Below, in pieces: positions 1,020-15,707 of a DNA stretch of 64,000 nt. The number at the start of each line of letters is the position of its first letter. Positions within the stretch are counted from its first letter, which is position 1. Source of the DNA: Wenyingzhuangia heitensis (GTDB lineage Bacteria > Bacteroidota > Bacteroidia > Flavobacteriales > Flavobacteriaceae); NCBI RefSeq assembly GCF_011762155.1, contig NZ_JAASQL010000001.1, positions 1,426,001-1,490,000 of the forward strand. Direction: 5' to 3'. The position numbers and the translations under genes were made by a program. The notes beneath the pieces are model-generated. The model had not been told where the DNA came from, searched no databases, and was given only the letters and a program-made list of their open reading frames with translations.

Positions 1020-2990
1020 CTAGTTCAATTTAATAATTCTAGTATCGTTATCAATAGTAGTTTCTTCAACATCATATGCAGTTTCTGCAGAAGCGTGTAG
1101 CTCTAACATATATTCTGCAATGGCATCTTGCTCACCTCCTGTATAACTAAACGCAGAATTGTTGTTAGGATCGTTTGTTAAAATTGCTCCAGGGTATGCA
1201 GTGTCTTCTCCAAAACCAGCACCTTCGTAAAAGTTGATTCTGTTTGGAGCAGATAATTCTGAAAAAGGATACAAGTCACCTCCGTTAGCTAAAAAGTTTA
1301 AGGTAACTAAGTTAAAAGTTCTAGTAGATGATCCTTGAATGTTTCCTCCATCAACAACTAAATCTTGTCCAATAGATAATTTTTGTACTCTGTTTCCGGT
1401 TCCCTTTGTGGTTCTTGCTGTTTTAGAAGTATCGTATTCTACAACCATTCCTGCAACTTGTGGAAATTGACCTGGAGTAGCTCCATTTGCAGAAGCAGCA
1501 AAACCATGCTCTAATAAATCTTTTAATTCAGCAGCAGTAACGGTTAATCTTACCAATCCGTTGTCAAATTTAAAAGCAGCTCTTAAATGTCCTTCAGAAA
1601 TTGTTTTATCAGCAGATGGTAATAAAGTAGTTGTTCCATCAGGAGCTACTACAATTTGTCCCATGGCAGCTCTAATTCCACCTCCATTTTTAATAGAGAT
1701 ATCAACCGGTTCTGGAGACAACAAGTTTGCATACCATAAGTTTGCATCTGCTGACATGTTTCCTAAGTTTGTTTCTTCGGTTCTTACTTGTTCTCTTCTT
1801 CCGTCTAAAAATACGTTAGAGTATCCAATCACGTTAGAAAATTGTTCGTCTATTAAATCGCTTACAGCATCTTCTAAATCAGAAACTCCGTTGTTGTTAG
1901 ATGGATAAACACCATTGTAAATAGTACTTAAAGTTTCGGTATCAATAACACCATTTTCATCAAAACCAACAATTAATCTACCTAAGTATTTGTAATCTCC
2001 ATCTACATTTACAACCAATACAGGTTCGTCGTTAGGGTTGGTAGCAGTGTAAGGATATTCTTCGTCAAAAGCAGTATCTGTTTGGAATAGAATATCGTTT
2101 TCATCTCCCATTCTGGTGTTAGATCCACCAGCAACAATAATATCTACATCTGTTAACAATTCAGCTAAAGCTTTTTCTACAGAAATTTGTTGCATGTGTG
2201 CTAACAAAACTATTTTGTTAATTCCCATACCTTTTAAAGTATTTACAGAGGTTTGAATTTCTGCAGCCAATTGTTCGTTTGTAAATTCAACACCCGGAGA
2301 AAATACTAAGTTTCCTACAGAGGTAATTTTAGGAAATGTTGGAGAAGCAGCACCTACAATACCTATTTTTTCTCCTTTAATTGTTTTAACTGCATATTTT
2401 GCAACTTGAGTTCCTAATGTATTTGTTTCGGCACCATCTGTACCTACTGTAAAATCAGATTCTCCAGAAAAATCAATATTGGTTGCTAAGTATGGAAAGT
2501 TAGAGCCAGAAAAAGTAACATCGTTTTTAGATTCAGAAGAAATTGCATCTGCCAATTCTCCAGGACCTTGATCTAATTCGTGATTACCAATTACGGCTGC
2601 ATCTACACCAAAAGCGTTTGCGAAAGCAATGTCTATATGTCCAGGTTCATCACTACCCGTCATAGCTCTAATTACGCTTTCTTCTGCAGTGTTGTAACGT
2701 GGTCCAGGAATAATAATATCTCCAGAGTTTACGGTTAATGTGTTTTCAGAAAAAAGTACATCATTTTGAAAATGTTTTATCATTGTAGCAAATTGGTTGA
2801 TGCTGTTTAAGGCAATTTCTTCATCGCCATCAACATCTGCATAATGTAATAATTGTAAAACAAAAGCAGAATTTTCTAGTTTTGCTTGTACAGAAGCATC
2901 AACTTCTACAATTTTTTCTACTTCTTTAATCTCTTCATCACAACTGTAAAGAGCAAATGCTACAGCAATAGCACAGATTAATTTTTTCAT
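1020..2990 (-). CDS. 5'-nucleotidase / UshA-like metallophosphatase lipoprotein
   Basis: A 656-residue calcineurin-like phosphoesterase joined to a 5'-nucleotidase C-terminal domain. The N-terminus is a lipoprotein signal with a cysteine in LYSCDE, so the mature protein is membrane-anchored and faces outward. Metal-site motifs include the GNHELDQG box near residue 136 and a GGSN segment further on. The C-terminal substrate domain carries NGGGIRA near residue 433. The expected role is hydrolysis of extracellular nucleotides to nucleoside and phosphate. One deviation: the usual D-H-G motif near the N-terminus reads LLHYADVDGDEE, so the first metal motif is atypical, and the true substrate may differ from UshA. 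The gene is monocistronic, with a TAAATTTG -7 element at 3023-3016 and a terminator. Confidence 0.85.
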   Translation of the reverse strand: MKKLICAIAVAFALYSCDEEIKEVEKIVEVDASVQAKLENSAFVLQLLHYADVDGDEEIALNSINQFATMIKHFQNDVLFSENTLTVNSGDIIIPGPRYNTAEESVIRAMTGSDEPGHIDIAFANAFGVDAAVIGNHELDQGPGELADAISSESKNDVTFSGSNFPYLATNIDFSGESDFTVGTDGAETNTLGTQVAKYAVKTIKGEKIGIVGAASPTFPKITSVGNLVFSPGVEFTNEQLAAEIQTSVNTLKGMGINKIVLLAHMQQISVEKALAELLTDVDIIVAGGSNTRMGDENDILFQTDTAFDEEYPYTATNPNDEPVLVVNVDGDYKYLGRLIVGFDENGVIDTETLSTIYNGVYPSNNNGVSDLEDAVSDLIDEQFSNVIGYSNVFLDGRREQVRTEETNLGNMSADANLWYANLLSPEPVDISIKNGGGIRAAMGQIVVAPDGTTTLLPSADKTISEGHLRAAFKFDNGLVRLTVTAAELKDLLEHGFAASANGATPGQFPQVAGMVVEYDTSKTARTTKGTGNRVQKLSIGQDLVVDGGNIQGSSTRTFNLVTLNFLANGGDLYPFSELSAPNRINFYEGAGFGEDTAYPGAILTNDPNNNSAFSYTGGEQDAIAEYMLELHASAETAYDVEETTIDNDTRIIKLN

Positions 2991-3015
2991 GATAATTTTA
3001 TGTTTTGTGTAGCTG

Positions 3016-3023
3016 CAAATTTA
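3016..3023 (-). promoter_or_regulatory. Bacteroidota -7 element (TAAATTTG) for the 5'-nucleotidase
   Basis: The minus strand reads TAAATTTG, a perfect TAnnTTTG, 25 bases upstream of the ATG. No good -33 TTTG is seen at the usual spacing. Confidence 0.5.
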
Positions 3024-3049
3024 TCTTGTTGTGAACCTGTACAGTATTA

Positions 3050-3066
3050 TTACAAAGTTATTGTAA
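3050..3066. promoter_or_regulatory. Inverted repeat TTACAA-N5-TTGTAA
   Basis: A perfect 6-5-6 palindrome just upstream of the -7 element of the minus-strand 5'-nucleotidase gene, roughly where a -33 element would lie. It is a possible operator; AT-rich chance is not excluded. Confidence 0.25.
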
Positions 3067-3150
3067 CATGAAAAAACGATTTGTACAAGTGTAATGTTTA
3101 CTTATTGTAAAGTAAAACAATAAACATGATTTTTTGTTTTTACATTGCCG

Positions 3151-3178
3151 TTGGGAAATTAAAAAGACTACTAGGGAA
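3151..3178 (+). promoter_or_regulatory. Paired direct repeat, putative LytTR site 1 (sensor kinase operon)
   Basis: TTGGGAA (3151-3157) and TAGGGAA (3172-3178) start exactly 21 bp apart. The same arrangement precedes the genes at 7790 and 8905. The second repeat begins 61 bases before the first kinase ATG. A TTAATTTG -7-like sequence follows at 3208-3215. Two short direct repeats separated by two helical turns are typical of LytTR-family targets such as AgrA sites. Assignment to the regulator at 6952 is inference. Confidence 0.6.
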
Positions 3179-3232
3179 GCTAATTAGGAATCTTGTGTTG
3201 GTTTTGTTTAATTTGTTACATTAATTCTTGTT

Positions 3233-4468
3233 ATGATAAAATTGATCAATAGAAAAATAATTAAACAAGGAATTTGTGAAAGCTATTCTGATACTCATAA
3301 CAAAAAGATAGAACTTTTAAATACCTATGCTTTAATTTGGGTTTACTTTGTTTTAGTCTTTCCAATAGCAGATTTTATTTTTGGAATTTTTGTTTTAAAA
3401 ACAACACTAGCCCATATTTGTACTTTTTTAGCTTTGGGGGTAGTGGTTGTATTAAATCGCTTTCATCAGTTTATAATAGCGAGATTTTTTTGGTTGTTAA
3501 CTGCGTTTGTAAACTTTACAGCATTCTCTTTGTATATATTGCCAGGGACTTATATGGAGTATTACTTTATTATTTTATCGGGGATTAGTTTGTCTCTTTA
3601 CGACAAAAAAACGGTTCCTATTATTTGTACAGGATTCAGTTTTATTGGTTTTTTAACGCCTTATTTTTTTATAAAAGTGTATCCTAAAGAGTATGCAGAT
3701 AGAATTGAAGTGCCTGCCGTTTTTGGATTGTTTTTAGCAGTTTATTTTTTGGTGAGTTATTTTAAAAAATTAAACCTAGCAAATGAAAAAAAGTTGTCTT
3801 TAGCCTATGAATCTTTAACAGAATCAAAAAAAAGTGAGGTTGCTCATTTACAGCTAAAATCGTTAAAAGCTCAAATGAATCCTCATTTTATGTTTAATGC
3901 TATGAATTCTATTCAGAATTTGGTATTAAAAGGAGATAGAAATGAAGCGTATAATTATTTGACAAAATTTTCTTTAATGATACGAGAGAATTTAAACATG
4001 AGTGAAAAAAGTTTTGTGCTATTTAAAGAGGAATTATCGTTGCTTAAAAAATATTTAGAGTTAGAAAAATTAAGGTTTAAAGATTCTTTTAAATATAAAA
4101 TTATTGGAGCCAATACAATAGAGAGTATTAAAATTCCTGCTATGATTATTCAGCCTTTTATAGAGAATTCTATCAAGCATGGTTTGTTACATAAAGTGGA
4201 TGGAGTTAAAAAATTAGAAGTAGTTTTTAAATTAGAAAAAGAAGTGTTGGTATGTGTTATTACAGATAATGGAGTAGGAGTAAAAGCTTCTAAAAAAATA
4301 AATGAAGAGAATGAAAGTAAACAAGATTCTTTTTCTACCAGAGCTATACAACAAAGGTTGATTTTTTTAACAGATTTTTATAAAACAGATATTGGTTTTA
4401 CCTATTTACCAACAAGTGTAGGGACAAAAGTAGAGGTTAAAATCCCTTATGTAACAGAGCCTAGTTAA
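3233..4468 (+). CDS. LytS-type membrane sensor histidine kinase, paralogue 1
   Basis: A 411-residue inner-membrane kinase. Residues about 30-178 hold five to six hydrophobic segments with no recognised periplasmic sensor domain. A short coiled linker follows, then a His_kinase-type domain with LKAQMNPHFMFNAMNSIQ, where His218 is the expected phosphorylation site. The ATPase part is complete: the N box QPFIENSIKHGLLHK, the G1 box ITDNGVGV and the SVGTKVEVKIPY strand. It should phosphorylate the LytTR regulator encoded at 6952. It is the first gene of a four-gene unit (three kinases, one regulator) with gaps of 17 and 1 bases and a final 1-base overlap. A pair of 21-bp-phased repeats upstream suggests autoregulation. 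It is closely related to the next two genes, so the group arose by tandem duplication. Confidence 0.88.
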   Translation: MIKLINRKIIKQGICESYSDTHNKKIELLNTYALIWVYFVLVFPIADFIFGIFVLKTTLAHICTFLALGVVVVLNRFHQFIIARFFWLLTAFVNFTAFSLYILPGTYMEYYFIILSGISLSLYDKKTVPIICTGFSFIGFLTPYFFIKVYPKEYADRIEVPAVFGLFLAVYFLVSYFKKLNLANEKKLSLAYESLTESKKSEVAHLQLKSLKAQMNPHFMFNAMNSIQNLVLKGDRNEAYNYLTKFSLMIRENLNMSEKSFVLFKEELSLLKKYLELEKLRFKDSFKYKIIGANTIESIKIPAMIIQPFIENSIKHGLLHKVDGVKKLEVVFKLEKEVLVCVITDNGVGVKASKKINEENESKQDSFSTRAIQQRLIFLTDFYKTDIGFTYLPTSVGTKVEVKIPYVTEPS

Positions 4469-4485
4469 TTTTTAAACAGACTATT

Positions 4486-5712
4486 TTGAGAAAGTTATAT
4501 CAATTTTTTTTAGACATTGGGCAGCAGTCTCATTATTCATCTTTAGAAAATAAGAAAATAAAATTATTAAATATTTATGTTCTTATAACACTTCATTTTG
4601 TAGTAATAATGCCTATTGGTGATACTATTACAGGTATTATTACTTCTAAAATAATCCTGTGTTATTTGGTGTTGTTATTGTTTATGATTGTAATTTTATT
4701 TTTAAACAAACATCAAAAATATTATTTGGCTACAACTTTATGGTTGGCAATTGTATTGTTTGCCGTTTTTATGTTTTCTATAGCTTTATTACCACAATCT
4801 TATAGCGAGTATTATTATGTATTTGTACCCGGAATTGCGTTAACACTTTTTAATAAAAATACAATCCCTGCTATTGTAACTTTATTTAGTTTGTTTTTAT
4901 TTTTTATTCCTTATTATATAATTGTAGTGTATCCTGAATCGGTCGTAAATAAATTAGATCCGTTTGCTGTATTTGGATTGTTTACTTGTGTGTATTTATT
5001 GGTTAATTATTTTAAGAAAATAAATACAGATAACGAGAAAGAGCTAAAGGAAACGTATAAAAAACTAGAAGAGACTAAAAAAAATGAATTGGCCAATTTG
5101 CAGTTAAAACTGTTAAGAGGTAGAATGAATCCTCATTTTATGTTTAATACAATGAATTCTGTTCAGAATTTGGTGATTAAAGGAAATACAATGGATACAT
5201 ATACTTATTTGTCTAAGTTTTCTGCGGTAATAAGGGAAAATTTAAGAATGAGTGAGAAAACCTATGTGTTTTTTGAAGACGAATTTTCTTTATTACAAAA
5301 GTATTTAGAATTAGAAAAACTAAGATTTAAAAATTCTTTAAACTATGTTTTAGAAAAAGGAAATGTAGTAGCTCACCTTAAAATACCTTCTATGATTATT
5401 CAGCCTTTTATAGAAAATTCTTTGCATAGAATGTTTCATAAAACAGAAGGGGTTAAAGATATAGATATTCAATTTTATCAAAATAATAAATTCATTACTT
5501 GTACTATTATAGATAATGGAATTCTGGTGAATGAGATGTTTTTAAATCAACAAGAAGTATTAAAAGAACAAGCTTCTTTTTCGGTAGAAAGCATGAGTCA
5601 ACATTTAGAATTGTTAAAAGAGTTTTATAAAATAAACATTGGTTTTGAGTATACTGTTAAAAACAATAAAACAATATGTTCTGTAAAAATTCCATACGAA
5701 ACAATAAAGTAA
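4486..5712 (+). CDS. LytS-type sensor kinase, paralogue 2, with degenerate ATP-binding motifs
   Basis: A 408-residue paralogue of its two neighbours with the same multi-pass N-terminus and the phosphoacceptor region RMNPHFMFNTMNSVQ. The TTG start is chosen because it aligns with the neighbours (RKLYQFFLDIGQ against FYRRIINIGQ); the next in-frame ATG is about 40 codons in. The ATPase half departs from both intact paralogues at three sites. The N box reads QPFIENSLHRMFHK, losing the KHG segment and one residue. G1 reads DNGILV instead of DNGVGV. The GT of the last box is NKT. All these glycines contact the nucleotide in related kinases, so this member is probably a pseudokinase. It could still act in a heterodimer, as a phosphoacceptor or phosphatase, or as a sensor subunit. 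The frame is fully intact, which argues against simple decay. Confidence 0.85.
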   Translation: MRKLYQFFLDIGQQSHYSSLENKKIKLLNIYVLITLHFVVIMPIGDTITGIITSKIILCYLVLLLFMIVILFLNKHQKYYLATTLWLAIVLFAVFMFSIALLPQSYSEYYYVFVPGIALTLFNKNTIPAIVTLFSLFLFFIPYYIIVVYPESVVNKLDPFAVFGLFTCVYLLVNYFKKINTDNEKELKETYKKLEETKKNELANLQLKLLRGRMNPHFMFNTMNSVQNLVIKGNTMDTYTYLSKFSAVIRENLRMSEKTYVFFEDEFSLLQKYLELEKLRFKNSLNYVLEKGNVVAHLKIPSMIIQPFIENSLHRMFHKTEGVKDIDIQFYQNNKFITCTIIDNGILVNEMFLNQQEVLKEQASFSVESMSQHLELLKEFYKINIGFEYTVKNNKTICSVKIPYETIK

Positions 5713-5713
5713 A

Positions 5714-6952
5714 ATGAATTTTTATAGAAGAATAATCAATATAGGACAACGGCATACAGCCGATAATTTAGTGAAAAAAAAGATTGCTTTGTTAAATACA
5801 TATATTGTTATATGGATGCATTTAAGCCTTTTTTTTATTTTATTAGATCTTCTTTTTAATCCGCCAAATCAACTAAAAGATATAGGAATACATACCGTTT
5901 CTTTGTGTGTTTTGTCTTTTTTGATTTTTCTAAATAAAATAAATCAATTTAATCTAAGTAGAGTTTTATACATAACGTTGTCTTTTATTATTTTTTACAT
6001 TTTGTCTTTTGTCATCACCTTTAGTCCTTATACAATATGTTATTTTATTTTTTTACCTATGGTGGTTATGAGTTTGTATAAAAGCAATGTTCCATCGTAC
6101 TTTTTTTTAGCTCTTTGCTTGTTAACTTATGCATGGAGCGATTTGTGGATGTTAGAACAAATAACAGTAAACCAATACATAAGAGCAGTTGTTTTGTTAA
6201 AAGATCCTGTGGTAACGTCTCTTTTTATAGCAGGGTTTTATTTGTTTTATTACTTTAAAAAGTTAAATCAAAAAAGTGAAGAACAGTTAGAAATAGCTTA
6301 TCAAAAATTAGAAAAAACACAAAAAGGAGAATTGGCTCATTTGCAATTAAAATCTTTAAAAGCACAAATGAATCCTCATTTTATGTTTAATGCCATGAAC
6401 TCAATACAGAGTATGGTCTTAAAAGGAGATAAACACAATGCGTATCAATACTTGTCTAAGTTTTCGGAAATGGTAAGAGATAATTTAAACATGAGCGAAA
6501 AAAGTTTTGTTTCTTTTGATGAGGAAAATTCGTTGTTAAAAAAATATCTAGAATTAGAAAAGTTAAGATTTAGAAACGATTTTTCGTATAAAATAACAGG
6601 AGGTAATTTGGTTGATGATCTTAAAATTCCATCTATGATTATTCAGCCGTTTGTAGAAAATGCCATCAAACACGGCTTGCTGCATAAAGTAAACGGGCAA
6701 AAACAACTTCATATAGAATTTAAGCAAAAAGAAGTTTTTGAATGTATTATAACAGACAATGGAGTGGGAGTTCAAAAATGCAAAGAGATTAATATTCAAA
6801 ATAAAATAGAACACACATCTTTTTCTACCAATGCAATTAAAGAAAGGTTGGCCTTGTTAAAAGATTATTATAAAACAGATATTGGTTTTGAATATATTGC
6901 TGTAGCCAAAGGAACCCAAGTAGTTGTTAAAATACCATACACACTAAAATAA
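5714..6952 (+). CDS. LytS-type membrane sensor histidine kinase, paralogue 3
   Basis: A 412-residue kinase with hydrophobic segments across roughly residues 30-180. The catalytic region is complete: LKAQMNPHFMFNAMNSIQ, QPFVENAIKHGLLHK, ITDNGVGV and AKGTQVVVKIPY. It is closest to paralogue 1 in the cytoplasmic half, while the membrane half has diverged strongly. This suggests that the three proteins sense different cues but share one output. It begins one base after the previous stop, and its TAA overlaps the regulator's ATG by one base. Translational coupling with the regulator is therefore likely. Confidence 0.88.
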   Translation: MNFYRRIINIGQRHTADNLVKKKIALLNTYIVIWMHLSLFFILLDLLFNPPNQLKDIGIHTVSLCVLSFLIFLNKINQFNLSRVLYITLSFIIFYILSFVITFSPYTICYFIFLPMVVMSLYKSNVPSYFFLALCLLTYAWSDLWMLEQITVNQYIRAVVLLKDPVVTSLFIAGFYLFYYFKKLNQKSEEQLEIAYQKLEKTQKGELAHLQLKSLKAQMNPHFMFNAMNSIQSMVLKGDKHNAYQYLSKFSEMVRDNLNMSEKSFVSFDEENSLLKKYLELEKLRFRNDFSYKITGGNLVDDLKIPSMIIQPFVENAIKHGLLHKVNGQKQLHIEFKQKEVFECIITDNGVGVQKCKEINIQNKIEHTSFSTNAIKERLALLKDYYKTDIGFEYIAVAKGTQVVVKIPYTLK

Positions 6953-7689
6953 TGAAAAAGACCAAAGCAATTATAGTTGATGATGAGTTAAGTGCTAGAG
7001 AAAATTTAAATTATTTAATAGAAAATTTTTGTCCAGATATTACGGTGGTAAATACTTGCTGTAATGTGAATGAGGCTGTTGTTAGTATTAAAAAACTAAA
7101 ACCTGATGTGGTTTTTTTAGACATAGAAATGCCTCAAAAAAATGGGTTTCAGTTGATAAAAGAGTTCGATGAAATTAATTTTCAAATCGTATTTATTACT
7201 GCGTATGATCAATATGCAATCAAAGCTTTTGAAGTATCTGCTTTGGATTATTTACTAAAACCTATAGATATTGACCGATTGTTAGAGGTGACCACAAAAC
7301 TTAAAAATCAGTTAGGATTGTTAGGCTTTCAAAAGAGACTTAAGACCTTGTCGTCTAACCAAAAAAAGTTATCTAAAATTTCAATTCCCTATAAAAGTGA
7401 TTATGTAATTATTAACGTTGATGATATTTTGTACATAGAAGCAGATAGAATGTATAGTCACATTTATACTCATCAAGGAAAAAAATATACAGCTTCTAAA
7501 AAATTAAGTCATTACGAAGAGTTGTTTTTTGAAAACTGTAATTTTAAACGTATACACAGGTCGTGGTTGGCAAATTTAGACAAAGTAACCTCTTATTCTA
7601 AGTCCGATAAAAATTTAATTATTAACAATAAAGAAATCCCTGTAGGAAAAACATATAAAGAGCAAACAGAGGCCTACCTAAACAACTAA
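6952..7689 (+). CDS. LytTR-family response regulator
   Basis: A 245-residue two-domain regulator. The receiver domain (about 1-125) has the acidic pair IIVDDE near residues 8-12, the phosphorylation site Asp57 in VVFLDIEMP, a FITAYDQYA segment and the conserved Lys in YLLKPI. The LytTR DNA-binding domain (about 140-245) includes DDILYIEADRMYSHIYT, FKRIHRSWLANLDKV and a final PVGKTYKEQTEAYL. LytTR proteins bind short direct repeats spaced by about two helical turns. Three such pairs, phased by 21 bp, lie before this operon and before the lipoprotein genes that follow. It is the only response regulator next to three kinases, so they probably converge on it. Confidence 0.9.
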   Translation: MKKTKAIIVDDELSARENLNYLIENFCPDITVVNTCCNVNEAVVSIKKLKPDVVFLDIEMPQKNGFQLIKEFDEINFQIVFITAYDQYAIKAFEVSALDYLLKPIDIDRLLEVTTKLKNQLGLLGFQKRLKTLSSNQKKLSKISIPYKSDYVIINVDDILYIEADRMYSHIYTHQGKKYTASKKLSHYEELFFENCNFKRIHRSWLANLDKVTSYSKSDKNLIINNKEIPVGKTYKEQTEAYLNN

Positions 7690-7696
7690 AAATGTG

Positions 7697-7724
7697 TTTG
7701 GAAACAAGAATTGACTCTTGGGAA
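7697..7724 (+). promoter_or_regulatory. Paired direct repeat, putative LytTR site 2 (lipoprotein 1)
   Basis: TTTGGAA (7697-7703) and TTGGGAA (7718-7724) start 21 bp apart. A CATTTTTG -7-like box at 7756-7763 begins 38 bases after the second repeat, and the lipoprotein ATG is at 7790. This spacing is the same as at the site before 8905. Confidence 0.65.
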
Positions 7725-7789
7725 ACTATCTAAATATAAACCTTTATTAAAATATCATTTTTGATGAAAATTAACTAAATCAATTAAAA

Positions 7790-8725
7790 ATGAAAAAGAT
7801 AGATTTATTTTGTAAAGCAATCATAACTTGTGTTTTAGGTTTTTCCCTAGCATTGGTAAGCTGTACTAAAAGTGATACGGAAGTAGAAGATATTATTACA
7901 GAGGAACCAGAACCTGTATACCTAGATAAAAGTATTACAAGTGCAGGTTTTTTAGTTTTTGATGGAGTTAGATCGGACAACGAGTACGACTTTAAATATA
8001 CACCTGTTATAGAAGTAAATGGATATAATGAAGATTATAACTACGAATTAAAACTAACAGGAGAAAATTTCAATGAAGAATATACATTAAGTTTAACAGA
8101 GCCTACCCCAAAAGTTGATGCAGGAAAAGAAGTTGGAGAAATTTTAGCAGCACTTGTTGCTCCTACAGAACCTATAGTAACAACACCTAAACTACAAGCA
8201 GATATTACTGCTTTAGATATGGAACCAGATACATATACTGTTGTTATTCTAGAAAAAGAAAGTAATACAGAATTAAGTGTAGCGGGTATAGACAATGCAA
8301 CTTATGTTGTTGTAGATAGTGATGCAACTAATTTTTTAAGTGGAACTCAGCTAGAAAGTGATGCATGGGCTAAATTGTCTGAATTAAATTTAAATACACA
8401 TGCCAGTTTTAGAGTACGACCTACTATTGTAAACTACATTAATGGAATAGGTGTTGTGTTAGGTATCTATAATGTAGACGGAAGTAAAATAGGATATGTT
8501 TCTTCAAATGGATCCAATGGTGCTACACAAGGAACTTATTCTTATAAATTTCAAGCATCTAAGGTTGATGATTTAATCACAGAAGATGGAACGTATTTGC
8601 TACGATTAGAAGAAAGAACAAGTACCATTGATGCAAATGATACAGGATATAGAAATGGACTGTTTCAAAAAATACAAATCACAAAACTTACAAAGGGAGG
8701 ATTCCTTGTAGATAAAAGTAAATAG
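7790..8725 (+). CDS. Lipoprotein of unknown function, paralogue 1
   Basis: A 311-residue protein with a lipoprotein signal ending at Cys25 (LALVSCTKSD), so it should be anchored to the outer membrane or the surface. I do not recognise the family. It is acidic and looks beta-rich. It shares a three-part layout with the two following lipoproteins: an early Y-x-Y/K-LKLxG repeat (YNYELKLTGENFNEEY), a middle LDMEPDTYTVVILEKESNTELSV segment, and a C-terminal GTYLLRLEE segment. Its own promoter carries a 21-bp-phased repeat pair, which ties it to the upstream kinase/regulator operon. A role as sensor accessory, target or surface product of that pathway is inference. Confidence 0.7.
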   Translation: MKKIDLFCKAIITCVLGFSLALVSCTKSDTEVEDIITEEPEPVYLDKSITSAGFLVFDGVRSDNEYDFKYTPVIEVNGYNEDYNYELKLTGENFNEEYTLSLTEPTPKVDAGKEVGEILAALVAPTEPIVTTPKLQADITALDMEPDTYTVVILEKESNTELSVAGIDNATYVVVDSDATNFLSGTQLESDAWAKLSELNLNTHASFRVRPTIVNYINGIGVVLGIYNVDGSKIGYVSSNGSNGATQGTYSYKFQASKVDDLITEDGTYLLRLEERTSTIDANDTGYRNGLFQKIQITKLTKGGFLVDKSK

Positions 8726-8812
8726 CATTATTTTAATTTAATAGTTTTTGTTTTAAACCTTTATAGATATTGTTCTGTAGAGGTTTTTTATGTTATAGTA
8801 TATGGCTAATAC

Positions 8813-8840
8813 TTGGGAAATAATATATGCTGTTTAGGAA
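8813..8840 (+). promoter_or_regulatory. Paired direct repeat, putative LytTR site 3 (lipoproteins 2 and 3)
   Basis: TTGGGAA (8813-8819) and TTAGGAA (8834-8840) start 21 bp apart. CATTTTTG at 8872-8879 begins 38 bases after the second repeat, and the ATG is at 8905. Both distances are nearly identical to those at site 2. Confidence 0.65.
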
Positions 8841-8904
8841 ATAATCCATCAATATATAGATAGATAAAACTCATTTTTGTTTAGAAATAATCAAAAAACA
8901 AAAC

Positions 8905-9810
8905 ATGAAAATTTTATTTAAAAGCACACTACTAATTTTATTTGTATTGATGAGTTGTGCTACATCTGATAGTATAGAAGAACAACCAGACATAGTAAAT
9001 ACAGATGGAAGTTTTTCAGTTGGTTCTAAAGATATAGAAGCTACTAAGGTGACTATTTCTGGAGTTGTTGTAAATTCTGACGATCAATTTAATTTTACAA
9101 CGCTAGATTTAGATATTTCTAGTGAAACAAGCACTACGCTAACTATAGAGAATTACAAAAATTCTTATAAGTATCAATTAAAACTAAAAGGGAGCTATAC
9201 AGACAATGTATATTATGTAAATATTAAAAATATAGAAGCCGAAAAAAATACGAGTATTAACAATGTTTCACCTTCGGTTTCTAACACAACAGTTGGGGTA
9301 GATTTGTCTGGTTTAGAAATGTTATCAGATTTTTACACCGCTAAATTGATAGAAGTAGATAGTGGAAATGAATTAAGTTTAGAAAACAATACGAGTACAA
9401 ATAGTACCGAAATAAGATTTATAGATCAAGGAAGTGATGACTTTTACACGACCATAAGAGCATCAGATACTAGTGGAGCTATTTCTAGTACAGGACATCC
9501 TAAAGGATATGGATTAAAACTAGAAACTTATAAATTATCTAAAGCAAAAGCATTTATAATACCAGGGAATACACAACGATTGGCTTTTTACAAACCGTCA
9601 GATAAGTCATTGATAAAGTCTACACAATCTCCAAGTAGATATTCATCTACTTCTACTAATGGAGGGCAAGCTTATTATACCTATTTAATATACTTAAGTC
9701 CAGAAAGAATAGGAGTTGTTGCCGGTGATTATTTAATAAGAATGGAAGAGTTAAACGCTTCAGGTACTATCATAAAATCATCTCCTTATCAAAAATTTAA
9801 AATTAAGTAG
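8905..9810 (+). CDS. Lipoprotein of unknown function, paralogue 2
   Basis: A 301-residue lipoprotein with a short signal ending at Cys18 (VLMSCATSD). Related to its neighbours through YKYQLKLKGSYTDNVYYVNI, LEMLSDFYTAKLIEVDSGNELSLEN and GDYLIRMEELNASG. It is rich in Ser, Thr and Asn and probably beta-stranded. The 179-bp gap upstream holds the third 21-bp-phased repeat pair and a -7-like box. The next gene starts 38 bases downstream with no promoter signal, so the two are probably cotranscribed. No enzymatic motif is visible. Confidence 0.7.
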   Translation: MKILFKSTLLILFVLMSCATSDSIEEQPDIVNTDGSFSVGSKDIEATKVTISGVVVNSDDQFNFTTLDLDISSETSTTLTIENYKNSYKYQLKLKGSYTDNVYYVNIKNIEAEKNTSINNVSPSVSNTTVGVDLSGLEMLSDFYTAKLIEVDSGNELSLENNTSTNSTEIRFIDQGSDDFYTTIRASDTSGAISSTGHPKGYGLKLETYKLSKAKAFIIPGNTQRLAFYKPSDKSLIKSTQSPSRYSSTSTNGGQAYYTYLIYLSPERIGVVAGDYLIRMEELNASGTIIKSSPYQKFKIK

Positions 9811-9848
9811 AACCTGCAGAAAATTTATAAATCAAAAAAAAACAAAAC

Positions 9849-10778
9849 ATGAAATTAAAACAAAAAACACTAATAACCGCTTTAGCAACAACCTTGCTTT
9901 TTGCATGTAGCTCTAATTCTAATGACATAGAACCGGTTAAAGAACCAGAAGCAATAAAAGCGACAAAAGCAACACTAAAAGAGAAATCTGGGCAAGGTTA
10001 TCCTAGAGTTTCTGATGAGACAAACACAACAGAAACGTATGATATAACAGCTACAGCCCAAGTAACTATAGAAGATTACGATGCTACCTATGATTATAAA
10101 TTAAAATTTACAGGGAAACAATATGGTAAAGTTTATGAAGCCTTTGAAGTAGAAGAAACAGAAGAGGTAGAAGAAAGAAAATCTAAAACAAGTGCAGTTT
10201 CAGAATCTATAGATAGTAGTACTGGTACCGTAATTAAATTTGATGTTGATAATTTAAAAATGGATGTAGATTTTTATGACGTAACTCTAATAGAAGTGCA
10301 GAGTGAAAATGAAATCTCGGTAGAAAATTATTCAGATAATACCCAACCGTATAGAATTTTAGATGTTAATAGTTCAAAATTAGCAACTTCAATAGCAATA
10401 CAACTAACAGGTAGTATTGGATATGTAACCAGTATTACAGAGGATCAAAATTATACTCTAAATTTTGTAGGTAGAAACCAGAAAAGATTAGATGTAAAAA
10501 GTACAGAAACTCCATATTTGGTTTTCTTAAACAAAAGTGATAAATCTTTAGTAAAAAAACGAGAAGTATTTTACGCTAATACAATTTATGATGACAATAC
10601 AAGTACCCGTTATTACAATCACGATGTAATGAATAGTGCTAAATCAACAGGAGTATCAGTAGGTGATTATTGGGTCCGTTTAGAAATGATCAATAGTAGT
10701 GATGAAGTAGTATCACAATCTCCATTAGTTCCTTTAGAGATAGTGGCAGGTAAAGGTATTATACGCGAACTAGATTAG
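9849..10778 (+). CDS. Lipoprotein of unknown function, paralogue 3
   Basis: A 309-residue lipoprotein with a signal ending at Cys20 (LLFACSSNSND). It repeats the family pattern: YDYKLKFTGKQYGKVYEAFEV, LKMDVDFYDVTLIEVQSENEISVEN and GDYWVRLEMINSSDEV. It differs by a highly acidic, Glu-rich insertion (EEVEERKSK) about a third of the way along. It is the last gene of the two-lipoprotein unit, and a strong terminator follows. The number of lipoprotein paralogues equals the number of kinase paralogues, which may be meaningful or coincidental. Confidence 0.7.
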   Translation: MKLKQKTLITALATTLLFACSSNSNDIEPVKEPEAIKATKATLKEKSGQGYPRVSDETNTTETYDITATAQVTIEDYDATYDYKLKFTGKQYGKVYEAFEVEETEEVEERKSKTSAVSESIDSSTGTVIKFDVDNLKMDVDFYDVTLIEVQSENEISVENYSDNTQPYRILDVNSSKLATSIAIQLTGSIGYVTSITEDQNYTLNFVGRNQKRLDVKSTETPYLVFLNKSDKSLVKKREVFYANTIYDDNTSTRYYNHDVMNSAKSTGVSVGDYWVRLEMINSSDEVVSQSPLVPLEIVAGKGIIRELD

Positions 10779-10807
10779 AGATTGAATTTAATTAAGTAGT
10801 AAAACTT

Positions 10808-10846
10808 AAAAAGGTCTTTGAATTTAAATATTCAAAGACCTTTTTT
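10808..10846 (+). terminator. Intrinsic terminator closing the lipoprotein unit
   Basis: A 12-bp stem AAGGTCTTTGAA / TTCAAAGACCTT with an 8-nt loop and a T run. It marks the right edge of the kinase/lipoprotein module. Confidence 0.85.
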
Positions 10847-10872
10847 ACATTTATATTTGTAAAAAAGGAGAG

Positions 10873-11298
10873 ATGCAGTTTTATCAAAAAGAAATTAAGT
10901 TACAAGCAAAAAAAAGAGGCTATCATCTAGTTACAGATGAAATAGTAGTGGCTATTCCCGAAATATCTAAAATTAAAACGGGACAATTACAGGTGTTTAT
11001 TAAGCATACCTCTGCCAGTTTAACCATAAACGAAAATGCAGATCCTACAGTACGTTTAGATTTTGAAACCCATATTAACAAAATGATTCCAGAAGATATG
11101 CCGTATTATCAACATAATTACGAAGGTAGTGATGATATGCCTGCTCACATAAAAGCATCTATGTTAGGTTGCTCTGTTACTATCCCTATTACCAACGGAA
11201 AATTAAATTTAGGTATTTGGCAAGGAATTTATTTAGGAGAGCACAGAAATTACGGAGGTGCAAGAATTCTTGTAGTTACAGTTTTTGGAACTTTTTAA
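10873..11298 (+). CDS. YjbQ/UPF0047 family protein
   Basis: A 141-residue cytosolic protein matching the small YjbQ (UPF0047) family over its whole length. Hallmarks are HTSASLTINENADP (around 45-58), EGSDDMPAHIKASMLG (around 84-99) and LGIWQGIYLGEHRNYGGAR. The invariant His, Asn and Glu residues cluster in the family's presumed active site. Some members show a weak thiamine-phosphate synthase activity, but the physiological role is unsettled. The gene lies between a terminator and a convergent SGNH hydrolase gene, so it is probably transcribed alone. An AAGGAG sequence sits just before the ATG, unusual for Bacteroidota, where such sites are normally unused. Confidence 0.88.
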   Translation: MQFYQKEIKLQAKKRGYHLVTDEIVVAIPEISKIKTGQLQVFIKHTSASLTINENADPTVRLDFETHINKMIPEDMPYYQHNYEGSDDMPAHIKASMLGCSVTIPITNGKLNLGIWQGIYLGEHRNYGGARILVVTVFGTF

Positions 11299-11305
11299 AC
11301 ACGTC

Positions 11306-12226
11306 TTATTGGTTTAATAAAAACTTAATTTTATGTTCTGTCTTAAGGTAGTTTTCTTGAGCTTCATTTATAGGAATACCAACATTCATATTAGGTCGTT
11401 TATGTCCAGTATAAGTTAACCAAGCATCTTTCATTAAAATTTGTCTCTCATCTACAAGTTTAAAAATACTATTTCCGTTATTGTATTTTAGCAACGCTTT
11501 GTTAAAGGTTGTAAAGTTGGTAAACGTATGAATTCCCAATCCTGATAAAATTTGTTGAGTCATAATCCAGTGTCCCTGTGGTTTGGGATGAATTCCATCA
11601 CGGGTAAACATAAAATCAGGATTTGTTTTTCTCTCGTTTAGTAATTGGTTCTTCATTCCTTGGTGCACATCAATTACTTTCCAATGGTTTGTGTATTTTA
11701 GACTCATTAACCAATTGGCATAAATGTCCATTACGTTGCTATAAGCAGCATTGGTAATTTTATCATAGGGGATAGGAGTTAAATAAATAACGGGAATATT
11801 ACGTTTGGTTATTTGATGATTTAACCACATCATTCCTTTTTTATATTTTTTAAAACGTTTTTCATCAAAAGGCATATAAATACCATCATTTATTCCATAG
11901 CTAGCAAATATAAAATCGGGTTGAGTTTTGTCTAATATTCTTTTGAGCCTTTCTCTTAAATCCGGACGAGGAAATTTCCCTTTAGCATGATCGGGTTCTG
12001 ACAAACCTGAAACTGTTTCGCTTGGCAAACCAACATTAATGTACTCTCTTTTTATGGATGGATTTTCTAAAGTTAGAATGGTTTCTAGATAACTAATATA
12101 ATCTCCTTGGTAAGTAATGCTGTTTCCTAAAAATAAAATGCGTTTGGCATCTGTAGGTATTTTATAAACCGTTTGAGCGGTTAGAGATATACTTATAAAT
12201 AAGAATAGGAAATTTAATTTTTTCAT
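11306..12226 (-). CDS. Secreted SGNH/GDSL-family hydrolase
   Basis: A 306-residue protein with a Sec signal peptide (first 17 residues, ending LTAQ) and an SGNH fold. Block I is FLGNSITYQG with Ser36 as nucleophile. The block III region has ASYGINDGIY with Asn113. Block V is RDGIHPKPQGH with Asp211 and His214. Such enzymes are esterases or acetyl-esterases acting on carbohydrate or lipid esters. The substrate cannot be told from sequence. It converges on the YjbQ gene with only a 7-base gap, and no terminator is evident between them. Confidence 0.82.
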   Translation of the reverse strand: MKKLNFLFLFISISLTAQTVYKIPTDAKRILFLGNSITYQGDYISYLETILTLENPSIKREYINVGLPSETVSGLSEPDHAKGKFPRPDLRERLKRILDKTQPDFIFASYGINDGIYMPFDEKRFKKYKKGMMWLNHQITKRNIPVIYLTPIPYDKITNAAYSNVMDIYANWLMSLKYTNHWKVIDVHQGMKNQLLNERKTNPDFMFTRDGIHPKPQGHWIMTQQILSGLGIHTFTNFTTFNKALLKYNNGNSIFKLVDERQILMKDAWLTYTGHKRPNMNVGIPINEAQENYLKTEHKIKFLLNQ

Positions 12227-12445
12227 TTGATTTCATCTTAGGAAGTTATAAATGTAATCAAAACTATTTTTAGAAAATAAGACTTAAAGATTGTAGTTAG
12301 AAATTAGTTGAGTAATCATAACATACAAGTTAATAAGTGATATAAGAATAATAATAACTTTTTGCTTTCTAGTCATACTTAAAAGATTGTTGTTTAAGAG
12401 TCTAAAAATGACTAAAAACTTACATCTTGATTTCTTTAAAAAAAG

Positions 12446-12829
12446 TTAAGAAAGTTTCCATTTGTAATCTGTATGTACTTTGTAGATAATATATCCAAAA
12501 GGAATCCACCAGATTAAATCATTAAAAATTAGGGTGTAAAAAAACTCAAAAGGAACAATACCTTGTATGTAATTTCCTACAAATCCAATAGGGCCAAAAA
12601 TTTTACCCAAAAAACCGACAACTACAATAGGCCAATGTTTCATAGGATTGTAAGATGCTAGCCAATAACCAATTCCGTAAACTCCAACAATCATTCCCAT
12701 ACCTTGCCAAATCATAGGTAGGTTTAAACGCTCCATGCCTACCAAATCAAAAAAATGATTGGGGAATAAAACCACCCAAGTTCCCCAAAGAATATTATAA
12801 ATAGCGGCTAGTTTTAAAATTGTTTTCAT
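12446..12829 (-). CDS. Small multi-pass membrane protein, last gene of the carotenoid operon
   Basis: A 127-residue hydrophobic protein with about four transmembrane segments and conserved-looking motifs such as YNILWGTWVVLFP, MIWQGMGMIVGVYGIGY and GFLGKIFGPIGF. I do not recognise the family. It starts three bases after the photolyase stop, so it is translated from the same transcript as the carotenoid genes. A link to light or pigment physiology is inferred only from position. The 219-bp region beyond its stop has an imperfect inverted repeat but no convincing terminator. Confidence 0.7.
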   Translation of the reverse strand: MKTILKLAAIYNILWGTWVVLFPNHFFDLVGMERLNLPMIWQGMGMIVGVYGIGYWLASYNPMKHWPIVVVGFLGKIFGPIGFVGNYIQGIVPFEFFYTLIFNDLIWWIPFGYIIYKVHTDYKWKLS

Positions 12830-12832
12830 GTG

Positions 12833-14119
12833 TTATATACTTTGAAGTGCTTTTTTATACGTTTCTATGGCTCTTTCTCTAGCAAATTTATGGTCTACTA
12901 TAGGTTTTGGGTAAGATAATTCGTTTAATTCTGGAATCCATTTTTTTATGTAGATCAAATCTTTATCAAACCGTTGTATTTGTGTGGTAGGATTAAAGAC
13001 TCTAAAATATGGAGCAGCATCGCAACCTGTTCCTGCAGCCCATTGCCAATTTCCGTTGTTAGCAGCTAGTTCGTAGTCCAATAGTTTTTCGGCAAAATAA
13101 GCTTCTCCCCATTGCCAATCAATCAATAAATGTTTGCATAAAAATCCGGCAGTAATCATACGTACTCTGTTATGCATGTGTCCGGTAGCATTCAATTCAC
13201 GCATACCTGCATCTACTAGCGGATATCCAGTTTGTCCGTTGCACCATTTTTTAAAATCCTCTTCGTTATTACGCCAAGGAATTACATCGTATTTAGACTT
13301 AAAATTATGGTTCTTTACTTTAGGAAAATGGAATAGAATCTGCATAAAAAATTCTCTCCAAATCAATTCACTTAAATAAACATCACTCTGCTCTGGCAAG
13401 TCCAAAATTATTTGTCTAATACTTACGGTTCCAAAACGTAAATGGGGTCCAATATGCGTGGTGTGGTCTATAGCAGGAAAATCTCTATAATCTCCATAGT
13501 TTTTAATTTTTGTAGGATTAAAATCAGAAACTTGTAGGGTTGAGGTTTTAAAACCAATTTCTTCTAAGGATGGAATTTCTAAATGGTGCTGAATTAAATT
13601 TTGAAAGTTACCCTTTTCTGTAATTAATTCTAATTTTTTAAAAGCAGCCAACCACTTGTTCTTAAATGGAGTATAAATGGTATAAGGTTTTCCGTCGGCT
13701 TTTACAATTTCACCTTCTTCAAAAATTACTTGGTCTTTAAAACGATGAAATTCAGCCTTGTGCTCTTTGGCTAATTTATAAACGTTTCTATCCCTTTCCA
13801 ACGCATAAGGTTCGTAATCTTTGTTGGTATAAATGTTCTGAATATCATATTCTTTAAAGAGATCCTCCCAAACCTCTAAAGTTTTTCCTTTTAACACCAA
13901 CAAACCACTGTTTTGTTCTTTTAATTGCTGATTAATTTTAGACAAACAATTATAAATAAAATTTACTCGTGCATCGTCTTTTTCTAAAAACTCTAAAATA
14001 GCATCGTCAAAAATAAAAATAGGCAATACAGGAAAATCAGAAGCCAAGGCCTTGTTTAAAGCTGTATTGTCAAACAAACGTAAATCTCTTCTAAACCAAA
14101 AAATATTAACTTTCTGCAT
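12833..14119 (-). CDS. phrB: Deoxyribodipyrimidine photolyase / cryptochrome family
   Basis: A 428-residue flavoprotein of the photolyase/cryptochrome family. The N-terminal alpha/beta antenna domain begins NIFWFRRDLRLFDNTAL. The C-terminal FAD domain includes LIWREFFMQIL, WCNGQTGYPLVDAGMRELNATG, MHNRVRM and NNGNWQWAAGTGCDAAPYFRVFNP. These match class I CPD photolyases, which repair UV-induced pyrimidine dimers with visible light. The start overlaps the lycopene cyclase gene by 14 bases, placing it inside the carotenoid operon, so quenching pigments and repair are coexpressed. A cryptochrome-like sensor role cannot be excluded from sequence. Confidence 0.9.
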   Translation of the reverse strand: MQKVNIFWFRRDLRLFDNTALNKALASDFPVLPIFIFDDAILEFLEKDDARVNFIYNCLSKINQQLKEQNSGLLVLKGKTLEVWEDLFKEYDIQNIYTNKDYEPYALERDRNVYKLAKEHKAEFHRFKDQVIFEEGEIVKADGKPYTIYTPFKNKWLAAFKKLELITEKGNFQNLIQHHLEIPSLEEIGFKTSTLQVSDFNPTKIKNYGDYRDFPAIDHTTHIGPHLRFGTVSIRQIILDLPEQSDVYLSELIWREFFMQILFHFPKVKNHNFKSKYDVIPWRNNEEDFKKWCNGQTGYPLVDAGMRELNATGHMHNRVRMITAGFLCKHLLIDWQWGEAYFAEKLLDYELAANNGNWQWAAGTGCDAAPYFRVFNPTTQIQRFDKDLIYIKKWIPELNELSYPKPIVDHKFARERAIETYKKALQSI

Positions 14120-14795
14120 TTAATTTTTGTTTAAAGTATTGATGTAAATAAAGGTTGCTAAAAATTAACAACATACCGTAAAAAGTATCTTCTACAGGAA
14201 TGGTAAACATTCTAATTCCTAAATTTTCTGTATTGTTGTACCAAACTATTGGAGCTTTTAAAAAACTCCCCGTTAAAATTCCGTTACTGATAAAGAAAAA
14301 AGGTAAAATAGTAGCAAAGGCTAAGTAATAATAGAACAGATTTATTTTTTTAGCATGTAGGTACAATAAAAAGATTCCCAAAAACAAAAAGGTTAAAAAA
14401 GTATACCATCTATTGTAGTTTAAAATACTTAAACCTAATAAAAACAAAGCTAAAATATAATTTGTTTTTTTTAGACGAATACTGTGTTGTTTGTTTTTTA
14501 GTAAGTACTGAAAAGCAAAAAAAGTAAAAGAACAGGCATAGGGAATGCAAATAAAAAACAAGATTTCTTCAATAGGTAAATGACCAACATAAACTCCAGT
14601 TAAATAATCTGGATTAAATCCCCAGAAACCGAGTTTGGTGAAAATTTCATCCCACACTAAAAAAAAAGTAGCGACTACAATACAGCTTATAAAAAAAGGT
14701 TTCCATTCCTTATAAAATGGATGTTTTTTATAAAAACTACACAAAAAAGGAATAAGCAAACAACCTAAATCTATTAATAAATATGTGTATTGCAT
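14106..14795 (-). CDS. Lycopene cyclase (CrtYc/CrtYd fusion type)
   Basis: A 229-residue membrane protein with about six hydrophobic helices. It looks like two fused copies of the lycopene cyclase domain. The first half has the PIEEILFF signature in VGHLPIEEILFFICIPYACSF, and the second half has a matching TIPVEDTFYGMLLI. In this family the acidic residues of these motifs are catalytic. The expected reaction is cyclisation of lycopene ends to beta-ionone rings, giving beta-carotene. It overlaps crtZ by one base and the photolyase by 14, consistent with translational coupling. Confidence 0.88.
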   Translation of the reverse strand: MQYTYLLIDLGCLLIPFLCSFYKKHPFYKEWKPFFISCIVVATFFLVWDEIFTKLGFWGFNPDYLTGVYVGHLPIEEILFFICIPYACSFTFFAFQYLLKNKQHSIRLKKTNYILALFLLGLSILNYNRWYTFLTFLFLGIFLLYLHAKKINLFYYYLAFATILPFFFISNGILTGSFLKAPIVWYNNTENLGIRMFTIPVEDTFYGMLLIFSNLYLHQYFKQKLNAES

Positions 14796-15253
14796 TAAAA
14801 ATATTGTTTAAAATATTTAATAGGAACGTACAACATTCCAAAACATTCTCCTTCTTCTTTACCTAAATGTTTGTGATGTACTTTGTGAGCTTTTCGTAAC
14901 GATTTTATGTATGGATTTTTAATGTTTTTAAACCAATTAAAACGTTGGTGAATAATAATATCATGGACTAAGAAGTAGGCAATTCCGTAAAATAAAATTC
15001 CCAAACCAATAAAAAACAAAAAGTTAAGTTGCGGATGAATTCCATAATAAAATAAGGCAATACTGGGAATGGCAAAAATCACAAAAAAGGCATCGTTTTT
15101 TTCAAACACACCTTGGTATTTGGGTTGATGATGATCTTCATGCAAATACCATAAAAATCCATGCATTACAAATTTGTGTGTACACCAAGTAATACATTCC
15201 ATTACTAAAAATGTAGCAACGGTGGTTAAAATATATATAGCTACACTATTCAT
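14795..15253 (-). CDS. crtZ: Beta-carotene hydroxylase CrtZ
   Basis: A 152-residue membrane di-iron hydroxylase of the fatty acid hydroxylase/sterol desaturase superfamily. All four histidine clusters are present: HKFVMH (26-31), HEDHH (38-42), HDIIIH (97-102) and HKVHHKH (123-129). It hydroxylates the beta-ionone rings of beta-carotene to give zeaxanthin, which makes zeaxanthin the likely end product of this operon. It overlaps the preceding gene by eight bases and the lycopene cyclase by one. Confidence 0.92.
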   Translation of the reverse strand: MNSVAIYILTTVATFLVMECITWCTHKFVMHGFLWYLHEDHHQPKYQGVFEKNDAFFVIFAIPSIALFYYGIHPQLNFLFFIGLGILFYGIAYFLVHDIIIHQRFNWFKNIKNPYIKSLRKAHKVHHKHLGKEEGECFGMLYVPIKYFKQYF

Positions 15254-15707
15254 TCTGTATTTTTTTTAGGTGATTTAAAATCGTTTTTTGATAACTTTTT
15301 TCAATATTACTTTCATCAATATTTTGGATGATAAAAGCATAATCTTTATCAATAGAACTATTGTAATTTAAAAAGCTAGGAGCCATCTTTTGAGTGAGCC
15401 ACCTAATGTATCTAGCTTCTATGTTTTTATTGTTTTTATCAATAAAGTTTTCTAGCATTTTTTTTCCTTTGTTAAAGTTACTCAACTTGCTAATTGGAGA
15501 CCAAACAAATTCTGCTTTTTTCATGGTTGCTGCAGCGTGGTAGGGTGTTGTTTTGTCACAGGTAGATTTTTTACATAAAAGAAGCATGTCTTCTAATTGT
15601 TCCTCATTTACACCCGCCTGAAAAATAGCTCTAATTTTAGGCAATTCGCTACAATTTTGTGCTTGTAGATTTAATGACAACAAAAGGAAAAAAACAACAT
15701 TTTTCAT
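15246..15707 (-). CDS. Small secreted protein of unknown function inside the carotenoid operon
   Basis: A 153-residue protein with a signal peptide (hydrophobic stretch to LQAQ at about residue 17) and a hydrophilic, probably helical mature part. It has three cysteines in the mature region, two of them in a LLLCKKSTC pair, and an HAAATMKKAEFVWSP segment. I do not recognise a domain. It lies between crtB (one base gap) and crtZ (eight-base overlap), so it is part of the same message. A secreted helper of a membrane pigment pathway would be unusual. Its role in the envelope is unknown. Confidence 0.65.
   Translation of the reverse strand: MKNVVFFLLLSLNLQAQNCSELPKIRAIFQAGVNEEQLEDMLLLCKKSTCDKTTPYHAAATMKKAEFVWSPISKLSNFNKGKKMLENFIDKNNKNIEARYIRWLTQKMAPSFLNYNSSIDKDYAFIIQNIDESNIEKSYQKTILNHLKKIQNE

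Follow-up and report, generated by a model that had tools for sequence, protein, structure and literature searches.

Paired direct repeats at 21-bp spacing as predicted operators of a LytTR two-component cluster in Wenyingzhuangia heitensis and its relatives

We examined a 64,000-nucleotide stretch of the Wenyingzhuangia heitensis genome (NCBI RefSeq assembly GCF_011762155.1, contig NZ_JAASQL010000001.1, positions 1,426,001 to 1,490,000 of the forward strand; hereafter the window, with its first letter as position 1), in which a two-component gene cluster and the adjacent lipoprotein genes carry three pairs of TTGGGAA-like heptamers. Three adjacent plus-strand genes match the His_kinase family PF06580 with 80.5, 69.2, and 80.4 bits, respectively (cut-off 25.2). 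By alignment, sensor kinase 1 (3233..4468) has an intact N box (ENSIKHG) and an intact DNGVG motif, and its N-terminus looks membrane-embedded; sensor kinase 2 (4486..5712) has degenerate ATPase motifs (ENSL-HRMF and DNGILV) and keeps the acceptor-region histidine; the ATPase motifs of sensor kinase 3 (5714..6952) are intact. The fourth gene (6952..7689, plus strand) encodes a response regulator with a receiver domain (PF00072, 78.2 bits, cut-off 30.2) and a LytTR domain (PF04397, 57 bits, cut-off 22.6), the predicted binder of the three pairs. The four genes stand in tandem, with gaps of 17 and 1 bases between the kinases and a one-base overlap between the last kinase and the regulator. Three lipoprotein genes follow on the same strand at 7790..8725, 8905..9810, and 9849..10778. 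Upstream of the kinases lies a divergent lipoprotein-like gene of 656 amino acids (1020-2990, minus strand), whose product we take to be of the 5'-nucleotidase type from the look of its sequence.

The pairs are found on the plus strand at 3151..3178 (TTGGGAA-N14-TAGGGAA), 7697..7724 (TTTGGAA-N14-TTGGGAA), and 8813..8840 (TTGGGAA-N14-TTAGGAA), and each agrees with TTGGGAA-N14-TTGGGAA at 13 of 14 positions. An earlier note on this DNA had described heptamers starting 21 bp apart at 3151/3172, 7697/7718, and 8813/8834, which can be read directly in the sequence. It had placed them before the kinase operon and two lipoprotein units, and the gene positions agree: pair 3151 precedes the kinase and regulator genes, pair 7697, which begins 7 bases past the regulator stop codon, precedes one lipoprotein gene, and pair 8813 precedes two more. 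The distances given in the note for the lipoprotein promoters also hold. In both, a CATTTTTG sequence, the predicted -7 box, starts exactly 38 bases past the first base of the second repeat (7718 to 7756 and 8834 to 8872; boxes at 7756..7763 and 8872..8879, plus strand), and the ATG follows the second repeat by 72 bases for pair 7697 and 71 bases for pair 8813, against the stated value of about 71. Both boxes have the TTTG phasing of the effector promoters described below. At the kinase promoter the nearest -7-like box is a weak, putative one, TTAATTTG at 3208..3215 (plus strand), 36 and not 38 bases from the second-repeat start; the 38-base figure in the note had covered the lipoprotein promoters only. 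The kinase-operon promoters of two Wenyingzhuangia relatives likewise have a pair.

The spacing of 21 bp stands out within the window. Over both strands of the whole window, pairs matching at least 13 of 14 positions occur three times at spacing 21 and four times in total over 30 other spacings (10-40), and 60 shuffles of the window, made with a shuffler that keeps dinucleotides only approximately, gave on average 0.05 pairs at spacing 21 and never more than one. By itself this comparison is circular, since the consensus was derived from the same three sites. An independent matrix was built from 26 sites of other genera only (Tenacibaculum, Polaribacter, Aquimarina, Lacinutrix, and Winogradskyella). 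Scanned over both strands of the 64-kb window, this matrix ranks the three pairs first to third (7697, 24.7 bits; 8813, 21.0 bits; 3151, 17.5 bits), and the fourth place scores 13.6 bits. Its two strongest matches in either of the other two Wenyingzhuangia loci fall on the kinase and effector promoters.

Next, the pair was followed in relatives of the regulator. The comparison set comprised the window and the 12 relatives with at least 50% regulator identity, out of 79 loci kept (L046 was omitted as coming from the same genome as L083, judged from identical matches). An exact TTNGGAA-N14-TTNGGAA pair is present near the regulator in all 13 loci, which represent six genera, and in all 13 a pair lies no more than 300 bases past a regulator stop codon. 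Counted in positions 2001-12000 of the window, all of L077, and 4501-15500 of the remaining loci, exact TTNGGAA pairs occur 22 times in sense orientation at spacing 21 and 6 times in total at other spacings up to 60, no other spacing having more than two; antisense exact pairs at spacings up to 60 were not found in these loci. A locus with 47% regulator identity (L087) was also scanned and has no sense-strand pair. No peak at 21 bp was seen among 67 loci whose LytTR regulators are more distant (1.1 Mb in all): sense pairs were counted twice at spacing 21 (L110 and L121), twice at 7, and three times at 60. From the 35 sites that match 11 or more of the 12 core bases, the consensus is approximately TTCGGAAAYAA (first half) and TTCGGAARYAA (second half).

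The promoters behind these sites share a geometry. According to a published study, sigma-A promoters of flavobacteria have a -7 box of the form TAnnTTTG, located at -12 to -5 (PMC9723704). For the phasing analysis the 35 sites were reduced to 34 (L085 was dropped for masked bases) and then to 31 by removing near-duplicates (two from L082 and one from L080). Labels of kinase side and effector side were assigned by hand from gene tables; a site at 8151 in L079, 532 bases from its kinase, and a site at 7912 in L086, before a 643-amino-acid protein, were counted as kinase-side. In 17 of the 31 sites TTTG stands exactly at +42, counted from where the second heptamer starts, and 2,000 composition shuffles never placed it at any one offset in more than 4 of 31. 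The signal belongs to the effector promoters (16/19 vs 1/12 on the kinase side). In 9 of the 16 effector +42 boxes a C stands at the first position, where the sigma-A box has T, the start sites being predicted only. A -33 element is placed by its usual spacing to the -7 box; no more than 3 of the 34 sites have a TTG at the offset expected for it (16-18). The transcripts of the two lipoprotein units are predicted to start near 7768 and 8884, with leaders of about 22 bases, so that the pair would span about -71 to -44 with its centre near -57. Because the pair keeps a fixed distance to the box at effector promoters, is centred near -57, and nearly always lacks a -33 TTG downstream, activation is the likelier sign of regulation on this promoter geometry.

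The assignment of the pairs to the cluster's own regulator has several points against it, many of which come from scans outside the cluster. Whether many equally good pairs lie elsewhere was a question raised in the earlier note. The bare core TTNGGAA-N14-TTNGGAA is not rare in the 3.67-Mb genome of W. heitensis (7 matches, reversed-pattern control 3; with one mismatch, 128 against 90), and two of the 7 are the lipoprotein sites. When TTTG is also required 33-37 bases past the second heptamer, the matches are exactly the three reported sites, and the reversed control has none. This pair-plus-box pattern was scanned in 14 of the 17 genomes of the bare-pair scan (the L077 genome was in neither) and gave 23 matches, 16 of them in clusters and 7 elsewhere, the latter number being equal to the 7 control matches. 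Three congeners that have only 34-36% homologs of the regulator (G002, G003, and G004) gave no pair-plus-box match and one control match each, which is weak evidence, as fewer than one match was expected. No such match was found in the Lacinutrix genome, probably from masking past its pair, or inside the cluster of Tenacibaculum piscium. Over 397 family genomes, a pair with the box at exactly +42 occurred in 21 genomes, compared with about 36, by a hand count, for the reversed control. Several of the 21 genomes match through simple repeats, and the DNA pattern alone was rejected as a finder of new family members, as it does not rise above the control. The site code is informative beside this regulator, not as a free-standing detector.

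The remaining points concern the control loci, the regulator tree, and the kinase promoter. With three best places kept per locus, the 1.1 Mb of control loci hold matrix scores above that of site 1 (23.5 bits in L121 and 17.9 bits in L123), so the weakest window site (3151) falls within background on score alone. In a tree of 92 regulators the 13 pair-bearing ones lie on one side of a branch with support 99/88, and label shuffles needed 12.3 changes on average, none of 500 being as low as 1; this clustering is partly built in, since the 13 loci were picked by regulator identity, and the informative part is that all 13 close orthologs carry the pair. The control loci L110 and L121, which also hold a sense pair at 21 bp, were not labelled. 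Site 1 itself has a weaker second half (TAGGGAA) and a box distance other than 38. On the kinase side generally, TTTG is absent from +38 to +44 in 8 of 12 sites, and the sole kinase-side site at +42 is the one in L079 that lies 532 bases from its kinase. Three of the 12 have TTTG at +40, a position that a Wenyingzhuangia aestuarii site and one Tenacibaculum site share with the window.

Two observations were made along with these scans. The five perfect-core places of the W. heitensis genome other than the lipoprotein sites were set aside as LytTR sites: four lie inside open reading frames, and the fifth, between genes that we take, from the look of their sequences, to be LacI-like and oxidoreductase-like, resembles a LacI-type operator. 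In this setting an intergenic TTCGGAA pair at 21 bp is conserved in two Wenyingzhuangia genomes, the present one (L203, 2006-2033) and another (L204, 2101-2128); it has a GGAAACGTT-type sequence beside it and probably serves as an operator of the LacI type. The 23.5-bit match in L121 is at position 1225 of a Bacteroidales metagenome locus outside the clade, with TTTG at another distance.

Weighing both sides, we consider it very probable that the cluster's own LytTR regulator, most likely an activator of a local regulon, has the three pairs as its operators. LytTR control through direct repeats two turns apart, as put forward in the earlier note, is supported by the receiver and LytTR domains of the regulator, the 13 ortholog loci, the lack of a peak in the 67 control loci, and the published spacing. 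Published LytTR sites are pairs of 9-bp direct repeats, 10-13 bp apart, at two-helical-turn intervals (PMC11347149), which amounts to 19-22 bp from start to start. The likeness to AgrA drawn in the note fits in position, the pair near -57 being close to the promoter-proximal AgrA repeats, which are centred near -60 (PMC4227749). The matrix scan suggested there, done with the out-of-genus matrix in the window and with the pair-plus-box pattern over the full genome, singled out the same three sites. Its forecast of a small self-controlled regulon stands in outline, since within this genome the full architecture occurs only at the three cluster promoters and both "small" and "self-controlled" fit. 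Autoregulation of the kinase operon is its weaker arm, less sure than control of the effectors because the kinase promoter has a different geometry. As a working scheme, the membrane kinases would sense a signal and the regulator would become phosphorylated; it would then bind as a dimer, each LytTR domain taking one of two heptamers that lie two turns apart on the same face of the helix. Centred near -57, the regulator would contact RNA polymerase and compensate for the absent -33 element. This would switch on the lipoprotein units at 7790 and 8905-10778 and, less certainly, the kinase/regulator operon itself through pair 3151.

A division of roles among the sites is unlikely, although it retains a real share of the probability: the effectors would be activated, and the kinase-side pairs would serve otherwise, in weak or negative autoregulation or in control of the divergent gene at 1020-2990. 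The difference in +42 phasing between the two classes and the place of pair 3151 between divergent genes favor it. In both Wenyingzhuangia relatives, however, the gene in the same upstream place is a dnaK on the same strand, and the pair is still found before the kinase; this indicates that the site belongs to the kinase rather than to the divergent gene. In several Tenacibaculum and Polaribacter loci the upstream gene is also dnaK. It is much less probable that a different LytTR regulator of the genome, or a factor of an unrelated kind, occupies the pairs while the regulator at 6952 works at other sites. Seven LytTR matches are present in the genome, site recognition is predicted here from sequence, and L121, outside the clade, has a strong matrix match; against this stand the pair close behind this very regulator gene in all 13 loci, the 67 loci of other LytTR regulators that lack the 21-bp peak, and the three congeners with distant homologs and no pair-plus-box match, the last with the small expectation given above. 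Repression of these promoters by the regulator is equally improbable. CoxC provides an example of LytTR repression where the repeats overlap the -35 box (PMC11347149), whereas a pair at about -71 to -44, a fixed distance to the effector box, and a mostly missing -33 TTG form an activator pattern. Chance similarity in AT-rich promoter sequence, for which the few bare TTNGGAA pairs of each genome could be cited, has a negligible probability given the spacing histogram, the control loci, the fixed box distance, and the out-of-genus matrix.

The kinases beside the regulator show a second recurrent feature. A selection of the kinases of 10 loci was aligned, and in 7 of the 10 one kinase lacks ATPase motifs yet keeps the acceptor-region histidine. 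In kinase 2 of the three Wenyingzhuangia loci, ENSIKHG is replaced by ENSL or ENAL and a one-residue gap, and DNGVG by DNGILV, DNGVYL, or DNGISI; the two relatives have only two kinases each. Four Tenacibaculum kinases from four loci have lost the N-box asparagine, reading EEAI or ERAV there, and in two of these the glycines are gone as well; beside each stands an intact kinase, in some cases a propeller-fused one. Only intact kinases are seen among those aligned from Polaribacter, from one Aquimarina locus, and from one Tenacibaculum locus. By this alignment pattern the degenerate kinase is recurrent but not general.

The proteins encoded after the pairs are varied. The three window lipoproteins are mutual paralogs with 24-29% identity (lipoprotein 2 is 24% identical to lipoprotein 1, and lipoprotein 3 is 29% identical to lipoprotein 2), whereas between-species orthologs share 48-68%; the number of lipoproteins in Wenyingzhuangia ranges from one to three. 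No pair precedes lipoprotein 3 among the best matrix matches, and the gap of 38 bases after lipoprotein 2 suggests that the two genes are probably co-transcribed. The lipobox of lipoprotein 1 was read from the sequence, and none of the three proteins matched a Pfam family above cut-off. A structure model of lipoprotein 1 is poor (mean predicted local distance difference test score, pLDDT, 60.8), and Foldseek returned mostly antibody-type folds at template modelling (TM) scores of 0.16-0.30, so that, at low confidence, its fold may be called beta-rich and nothing narrower. The gene after the pair in Aquimarina encodes a cadherin-like lipoprotein, and those in Tenacibaculum include a type IX secretion client with fibronectin and InlB-like repeats and an NHL-propeller protein; three further Tenacibaculum proteins (450, 105, and 125 amino acids), among seven effectors searched in Pfam, had no match. 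Where domains can be named, the common thread of the clade's predicted output is a secreted or surface protein. In the Tenacibaculum locus L078 (10001-18385), two regulator copies flank a type IX secretion client of 2,128 amino acids that has no detected pair before it. The window also encodes a second LytTR protein (about 18164-19009, minus strand), apparently membrane-anchored and, by the look of its sequence, without a receiver domain; the gene directly after it is presumably phytoene-desaturase-like, and there appear to be carotenoid-type genes nearby in two relatives as well.

Several known systems resemble the predicted one in part. The half-site here, TTCGGAA or TTGGGAA, presumably differs from the AgrA consensus, and the promoters have a predicted flavobacterial -7 box without a -33 element. 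AgrC is a kinase of another type than PF06580, to which the kinases here belong. In common with AgrA, which binds two direct repeats upstream of the promoter as a dimer and controls its own operon (PMC4227749), and with canonical LytTR sites, the repeat pair lies upstream of the predicted promoter near -60, with a spacing that agrees with the general one (PMC11347149). BtsS/BtsR and YpdA/YpdB of Escherichia coli likewise pair a LytS-type kinase with a LytTR regulator, and act on a named target gene through a conserved motif (PMC5552118). Their targets are transport proteins, whereas here the predicted targets are adjacent surface proteins, and several of the clusters have at least two kinases, one of them ATPase-degenerate. 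The RcoM1 and CoxC operators are also direct repeats with two-turn spacing for LytTR domains, as are those predicted here; they differ in having three 8-bp repeats (TTCNNGCA type) instead of two, and CoxC is a repressor that senses carbon monoxide through its own MHYT domain (PMC11347149). A literature search, judged by titles and the beginnings of abstracts, found neither the half-site, the fixed phasing, and the recurrent ATPase-degenerate kinase nor a LytTR binding site from Flavobacteriaceae described among the matches listed.

A LytTR two-component regulon is a known kind of switch, and the cluster appears to be a well-supported further example. A broader proposal is tentative, and we hold it to be possible rather than probable: Flavobacteriaceae may have a portable surface-protein switch in which the LytTR regulator reads TTCGGAA-N14-TTCGGAA, the pair takes the place of the -33 element with TTTG at +42, and a degenerate kinase partners an intact one, the whole being coupled to whichever surface protein is adjacent (a lipoprotein, a cadherin-like or propeller protein, or a type IX client with fibronectin and InlB repeats). 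The predicted site would provide a sequence code for one clade of LytTR regulators of the Flavobacteriaceae, from which regulated genes beside the regulator can be predicted in six genera. It would connect the variable surface proteins of marine bacteria with a two-component switch, and it hints at a class of promoters whose -33 element may be replaced by an activator pair set at a single fixed distance.

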